Under the pieces are notes generated by a model that did not search any database, had not been told where the DNA came from, and saw only the letters and a list, made by a program, of their open reading frames with translations. A stretch of 64,000 nucleotides of DNA. Origin: Streptomyces sp. NBC_00425. Its GTDB lineage: Bacteria; Actinomycetota; Actinomycetes; Streptomycetales; Streptomycetaceae. Of this stretch, positions 27,564 to 27,716 are shown in pieces. A program made the translations under genes and the position numbers. Numbering within the stretch: position 1 is the first letter of the stretch; every line of letters starts with the position of its first letter. Where the stretch lies: contig NZ_CP107928.1 of the NCBI RefSeq assembly GCF_036030735.1, positions 4,092,001-4,156,000 of the forward strand, read 5' to 3'.

Positions 27564-27690
27564 GTGCGCCTTTATCGACTGTGGCTTCTGCGGGATGGAA
27601 ACCGCCGGTGGGACTCGCGGTGTGGTGGCGGGCACGCGGCGCGGAGGTCCGGGTGTGCGCGCCGCCGGACCGAGTAGAGCAGCTGGCCGA
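27564..27690 (+). pseudogene. Decayed 5' end of a GT1 (rifampin-type) glycosyltransferase
   Basis: Starting at GTG 27564, 65 bp after the RAE, the sequence translates across small frameshifts to a consensus GT1/MGT N-terminus: V-R-L-L-S-T-V-A-S-x-G-D-x-x-P-P-V-G-L-A-V, then RARGAEVRVCAPPD and EQLAE. GAEVRVCAPPD is diagnostic of macrolide/glycopeptide-type glycosyltransferases. Frame is lost around 27590-27605 by single-base indels, and similarity stops at about 27690, 27 bp before rox. RAE-linked glycosyltransferases inactivating rifampin (Rgt) are known, so this is probably the first about 45 codons of such a gene. Confidence 0.7.
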
Positions 27691-27716
27691 AATGCAACCA
27701 TTTTGAATGGGGTTTC

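Follow-up and report, generated by a model that had tools for sequence, protein, structure and literature searches.

How did an odd 150-bp leader come to lie between a rifamycin resistance gene and the palindrome predicted to control it? In the window, as we call the whole stretch of 64,000 nucleotides that was analysed (part of a 9.8 Mb single-contig genome), the gene for rifampin monooxygenase, rox, occupies positions 27717–29144 of the forward strand (NF033145: 937.5 bits, with the model cut-off at 800), and its closest counterpart in named records is from Streptomyces, at 94%, which makes a Streptomyces the likely source of the DNA. Upstream, at 27481–27499 (+), stands a perfect 19-bp palindrome (inverted repeat), GGGCCTTGCGGCAAGGCCC, one of three such sites in the genome, which precede rph, rox and helR. 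Palindromes of this kind, termed RAE, are linked to rgt, rox and helD/helR in three reports (PMC10719064, PMC12802891, PMC8655204); a review places the element in the rgt 5′ UTR and, subsequently, ahead of rox and helR in S. venezuelae (PMC10719064). Its regulatory mechanism is described as not yet elucidated (PMC12802891). A 19-bp palindrome ahead of a rifamycin resistance gene is expected of the RAE regulon, and this is the arrangement found here; the element is predicted to be rifamycin-responsive.

The RAE lies within a conserved region of 130 nt, named U, that comprises the RAE and the leader up to the start codon and is common to intact rgt genes (27429–27558, +; HMM E = 2e-37, with the next match in the window at E = 0.39). 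The hexamer TATAGC (27468–27473, +), highly conserved in the consensus, is −10-like and may, with some uncertainty, be the −10 element of a promoter; in mycobacteria, the RAE is placed about 20 bp after a transcript start by a review (PMC10719064). The combination of TATAGC and RAE occurs at three places in the genome and at none in the reversed control. An RAE-like pattern with 3 mismatches allowed proved useless, with 255 forward matches and 576 in the reversed control. Just 5′ of the RAE, region U also holds a 9-bp inverted repeat (27432–27457, +; arms 27432–27440 and 27449–27457). Across the upstream regions of rgt, rox, rph and helR its pairing is kept in 94.6% of cells with 38 both-sided changes, against 48–59% for slid controls and a mean of 92.3% (maximum 92.8%) for column shuffles, which already reach 92% because the columns vary little. 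By eye, its 3′ arm could pair with the 3′ arm of the RAE in the window, which would suggest alternative folds. An Rfam search over 26300–29400 returned a single match far under threshold (PyrR207, 21.1 versus 60 bits). A 189-residue frame just 5′ of the RAE (26709–27278) resembles by eye the end of a tyrosine recombinase, and returned no Pfam or NCBIfam match.

The stretch between U and rox is derived from rgt, and the likeness goes beyond chance similarity. A profile built from 19 intact rgt genes (the initial 60 codons of each) and run over the 64 kb window matched 27562–27690 (+) with E = 2.3e-17; the second-best match in the window had E = 0.006, and the reversed sequence gave nothing better than 0.1. 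When 60 intact Rgt proteins were used in tblastn (E ≤ 1e-3), 58 of the 60 matches in the window fell on this piece, in one frame, and the 12 top matches all begin at 27560, with identities of 54–66%. One of the intact relatives (L026) scores 708 bits with the Rgt model NF000354 of NCBIfam, under the model cut-off of 800. The relic sits at the rgt start position behind an RAE: U ends at 27558, and rgt codon 1 falls at 27560. The first-pass annotation had proposed a GT1/Rgt N-terminus of about 45 codons directly after the RAE, and both its identity and its length are borne out, as homology continues to rgt codon ~45. It had, however, read the piece across single-base indels from a GTG at 27564, which was mistaken. 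That GTG frame (27564–27677, +; 37 codons) is one frame off rgt and stops at TAG 27675–27677, 39 nt before rox. The rgt frame itself is open from 27560 to the TGA at 27704–27706, so that the relic (27560–27706, +, as delimited by nhmmer, tblastn and the frame table) is not split and no frame-breaking indels are needed; relative to intact rgt it has one 1-nt and one 2-nt gap, a net difference of one codon. At the rgt start position, 27560–27562, the start codon has given way to TTA. The rgt-like part ends at ~27690, 26 nt 5′ of rox, a slight correction of the 27 bp given earlier. With TTA for a start, and ~45 codons left of the about 400 needed, the relic is not a functional rgt.

Elsewhere in the same genome, the leader of rph (L269) contains a 47-codon open frame that ends at +4 and gives a weak rgt match (E = 7e-4), and that of helR (L270) has, by eye, no more than a short piece in frame where rgt would start. 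No Rgt match was found in this genome at E ≤ 1e-40. Eleven genomes, ten with the relic and one that has lost it (G281), were searched for Rgt; five have a near full-length match elsewhere, and the one in G212 carries an internal TGA.

A 257-nt query (27460–27716) has matches in 341 of 392 genomes of the genus. Among 29 relatives’ loci opened from these matches, 19 contain a full-length rgt behind the RAE and six contain rox; intact RAE-rgt loci are common among the loci opened. Before rox, the relic is found in a minority of genes. Of the 90 rox leaders examined (L039–L128), eight have an rgt match at E ≤ 1e-5 and 82 have none; these 90 are the best by similarity to the window’s rox, for which 241 of the 392 genomes have a match, and not a random draw. 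Two loci found by way of the relic itself (L014, L017) are excluded from this count, and three others (L131, L143, L146) were found in the same way. In named records, 5 of 80 rox loci have an rgt match at E ≤ 1e-3, a set that overlaps in part with that from the genus genomes. The carriers are Streptomyces sp. SDr-06, a Pseudonocardiales MAG, Streptantibioticus ferralitis, Streptomyces humicola and Rhodococcus aetherivorans, and related copies in these records reach E values down to about 1e-29. Since the scar recurs in other Streptomyces, in Streptantibioticus, in the Pseudonocardiales MAG and in Rhodococcus, it is apparently inherited and old, and not a recent local deletion. The first-pass annotation had named a leader common to many intact rox genes as a finding that would tell against its idea; this is partly the case, as the scar occurs in several genera, and the rgt match stands all the same.

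Most sampled rox genes have the RAE region without the scar. U is present in 92 of 95, and in 33 of the 95 the rox start lies within 16 nt of the rgt start position (within 4 nt in 27). In some rox loci (L046, L055, L075, L076, L078, L124), a start near the rgt start position is open and in frame with rox, and the rox proteins of these loci could carry an N-terminal extension. By eye, sixteen aligned rox relics share a common rox-side junction, with a 6-nt gap after the APPD codons; many have a changed start codon (GTA in several), and small private indels occur. We considered the 6-nt gap as proof of one cassette common to rox, rph and an oxidoreductase gene described below, and rejected it on finding the two codons absent from a few intact rgt genes as well (L132, L138, L144 and L153 of 60, and L369). 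In one genome (G281; L040/L016), the rox is 97% identical to that of the window, and 115 nt of the relic are gone. Another (G110; L188/L010) has an RAE and a 92%-identical relic, perhaps as an orphan switch; its 7.5 kb stretch gave no match to rox, helR or full-length rgt.

To see how the relic has diverged, we compared the 91 pairs formed by 14 relic-bearing rox genes. Mean identity is 0.76 for the relic, 0.79 for fourfold sites of rox, 0.83 for region U and 0.69 for the flank before U, and the relic is less identical than the fourfold sites in 65 of the 91 pairs. We read this as drift of the rox relic, probably under no clear constraint; since GC-rich genes also restrict change at their fourfold sites, a weak constraint on the relic is possible. 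A parallel divergence of relic and rox was rejected, as the two identities correlate weakly (Spearman 0.32), which leaves room for exchange of leaders. In the rox protein tree, the relic-bearing genes, 17 of 130, lie scattered between others whose leaders are short or intermediate in length, and one reading of this scatter would be an old origin with many losses.

The same rgt pieces are found before other genes. Region U precedes intact rgt, rox, rph (L136: NF041857, 1635.7 bits), helR (L167: NF041254, 1275.9 bits) and, in a single locus (L139), a gene for an F420-dependent LLM class oxidoreductase (positions 489–1475 of that locus; TIGR03619, 242 bits) that lies directly behind the RAE region and an rgt stub. 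Its enzyme is a candidate for a new rifamycin-modifying enzyme. At the cut-offs used, 133 of the 392 genomes have a match to rph and 243 one to helR. Among the 30 helR genes most like that of L167, rgt is matched at E ≤ 0.01 within 320 nt in 15, with no full-length rgt between; a full-length rgt frame lies between in seven, and one more (L265) is cut by the end of the stretch. The leader carries an rgt match at E ≤ 0.01 in 23 of the 30 rph genes most like that of L136. These shares may be high, since both query loci carry stubs themselves. A further 19 rph leaders were picked by hand from the match list. In a tree of the leaders (UFBoot, 200 iterations), one clade unites the rph stubs (94), another the main helR stubs (100) and a third L021 and L159 (100); the rox relics group weakly (37, without L085), and L139 falls among intact rgt. 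These separate stub clades would imply at least three separate truncations of rgt. A FastTree placement of the rph and helR stubs as neighbours was not kept by UFBoot.

Loss of rgt behind the RAE can be traced for helR. Of 60 intact rgt loci, 37 have a helR match within the sequence retrieved (25 of the 41 long stretches), and rgt with internal deletions precedes helR in L024, L175 and L181. The stretches of the 60 intact rgt loci gave no match to rox or rph. The first-pass annotation had suggested looking for strains with RAE-rgt-rox. The rox upstream stretches (about 570–1760 nt) yielded a full-length rgt in 1 of 175 (G384, L126/L369), ending 127 nt before rox, and the interval contains the 3′ part of U and a degenerate RAE. 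No recognisable RAE was found before this rgt, so that it is not a clean RAE-rgt-rox; the neighbourhood of rgt and rox exists, but not as a clean ancestor. No clean, intact RAE-rgt-rox or RAE-rgt-rph was seen among these 175 rox stretches and the 49 rph stretches (690–1500 nt), the latter with no case at all.

The stubs differ in their reading frames. Counted from the first start codon where rgt would begin, the frame stays open as far as the next gene in 26 of 30 rph leaders against 8.3 expected (P about 1e-12) and in 15 of 16 helR leaders against 8.0 (P = 2e-4); in rox the excess is not significant (7 of 10 against 4.7, P = 0.12). Expectations are from dinucleotide shuffles, and the P values are uncorrected for relatedness. 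For the remaining two frames, 14 of 60 are open in rph, 15 of 32, or about half, in helR and 12 of 20 in rox. This set comprises pieces whose rgt match starts no later than model position 6, in leaders of 60–320 nt, a limit that drops intact rgt as well as L021 and L159; helR duplicates (L022, L163, L167, L172, L177) were also dropped. As for the start codon of rgt, 23 of 31 rph leaders and 16 of 16 helR leaders retain it, whereas ten of 11 rox relics have lost it and one has it still. Where the start is kept in rph, 14 of 17 distinct leader lengths are in the phase that ends the frame at +4 (P = 5e-5 versus 1/3); the rox leaders are spread over all three phases. The start is missing from eight rph leaders: five (L221, L225, L226, L233, L238) have a GTG one frame on, open and ending at +4; in L234 the GTG frame runs to +8, the leader of L286 continues in frame into rph, and L278 lacks any start nearby. 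By eye, three rph leaders (L211, L219, L227) seem to leave the rgt frame midway and return to it at the end, and are still open to the rph start.

The encoded peptides are not conserved. For stubs picked by hand, pN/pS is 0.94 in helR (n = 13 of 16) and 1.03 in rph (n = 9 of 31), with 0.96 for the last 35 rph codons (n = 11); codons 2–38 of intact rgt give 0.32 (n = 60). An open frame that encodes an unconserved peptide is what is expected of a coupling leader, and in many rph and helR leaders the frame closes at +4, −1 or −4 relative to the start that follows. That the frame is open up to the next start beyond chance in rph and helR (26 of 30 and 15 of 16 as above, relatedness uncorrected) is the pattern sought in a coupled leader, and it is absent from the window’s copy, where the rgt start is gone and the GTG frame ends 39 nt before rox. 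We infer that the stubs before rph and helR are likely to be translational-coupling leaders, a function predicted from these two features.

Taken together, the locus is most likely explained by deletion of the body of an rgt behind its RAE, which would have left the 5′ end in place, with rox coming under the RAE. The relic before rox is old, occurs with some rox genes and drifts under no clear constraint. Before rph and helR, the 5′ piece of rgt has stayed open and ends at or overlaps the next start while its peptide drifts freely; there it would serve, by prediction, as a translated leader passing ribosomes to the resistance gene. The RAE would then be a switch whose downstream gene was exchanged several times, with the rgt translation start region kept. 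To this explanation as a whole, with an rgt relic after deletion, coupling leaders at rph and helR and repeatedly exchanged downstream genes, we assign a probability of about 0.7. Of the original proposal that the RAE once drove an rgt that was then deleted, three points hold good: the sequence derives from rgt, it stands where rgt starts behind an RAE, and both start codon and body are missing. A recent local deletion is not supported. That the deletion occurred in place before rox is, for its part, suggested mainly because the order RAE-rgt-helR and several rgt deletions are seen for helR. A stronger formulation, in which the RAE travels with a bicistronic adaptor, a translated rgt stub that hands ribosomes to rph, helR and, in one species, the LLM gene, through several independent swaps, and in which selection keeps the frame and not the peptide while the rox stub is dead and being erased, strikes us as evenly balanced between right and wrong.

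A different history would lead to the same relic. Recombination within the 130-nt U could have placed an RAE-rgt 5′ cassette before an existing RAE-rox, in which case the rox of this lineage never had an rgt immediately before it. U is common to rox, rgt, rph and helR, the relic-bearing rox are scattered over their tree, three relics (L291, L292, L294) are close in the leader tree and apart in the rox tree, and the weak correlation of relic and rox divergence agrees with such exchange. The aligned rox relics nevertheless share one rox-side junction, beside an apparent ribosome-binding stretch of rox, and in-place deletion is both observed for helR and simpler; we hold leader exchange to be possible, though the less probable course. 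With this rival in play, and with most sampled rox having the RAE region free of the scar, the proposal that rox took over the rgt promoter is likely and not proven.

It might also be argued from the persistence of the relic in several families that it still has a function, as a conserved segment of the rox 5′ UTR on which induction depends. Such a role sits poorly with a sequence that changes about as fast as fourfold sites, that leaves no match at E ≤ 1e-5 in 82 of the 90 leaders and that has been lost before a rox 97% identical to the window’s, and with the 33 of 95 rox genes that start at or near the rgt start position; we find it improbable. Least credible, to the point of being negligible, is the idea that GC-rich DNA resembles a GT1 N-terminus by chance here. 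The piece is indeed short, but the profile controls given above refute this explanation, as do the strongly matching related copies and the placement at the rgt start behind an RAE.

On the preferred reading, deletion of rgt behind its RAE, the odd leader becomes evidence that one antibiotic-responsive element has repeatedly exchanged its resistance gene, with scars that can still be read, and a translated leader would offer a testable reason why the 5′ end of the old gene was kept in some lineages. The leader and the second conserved inverted repeat may both bear on how the RAE works. Among the papers that literature searches brought up, none deals in its title or abstract opening with rgt remnants or leader ORFs behind the RAE; any novelty is provisional.

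In comparison with the RAE-controlled genes of actinomycetes (rgt, rox, helR), the window has the same palindrome and the same types of gene, and differs in the rgt piece between RAE and gene, which the passages on RAE in the reports cited above do not mention. With Rgt itself (NCBIfam NF000354), codons 1 to about 45 of the relic can be aligned, but without start codon and body it cannot make the protein. The ends of many rph and helR leaders resemble the overlapping stop and start of translational coupling of the ATGA/TGATG type (PMC6728339), and bicistronic designs likewise use a short leader peptide (PMC5995908). Unlike in those systems, the leader here is a truncated resistance gene with an unconserved peptide, and in the window’s rox copy the frame stops short of the gene that it would serve.
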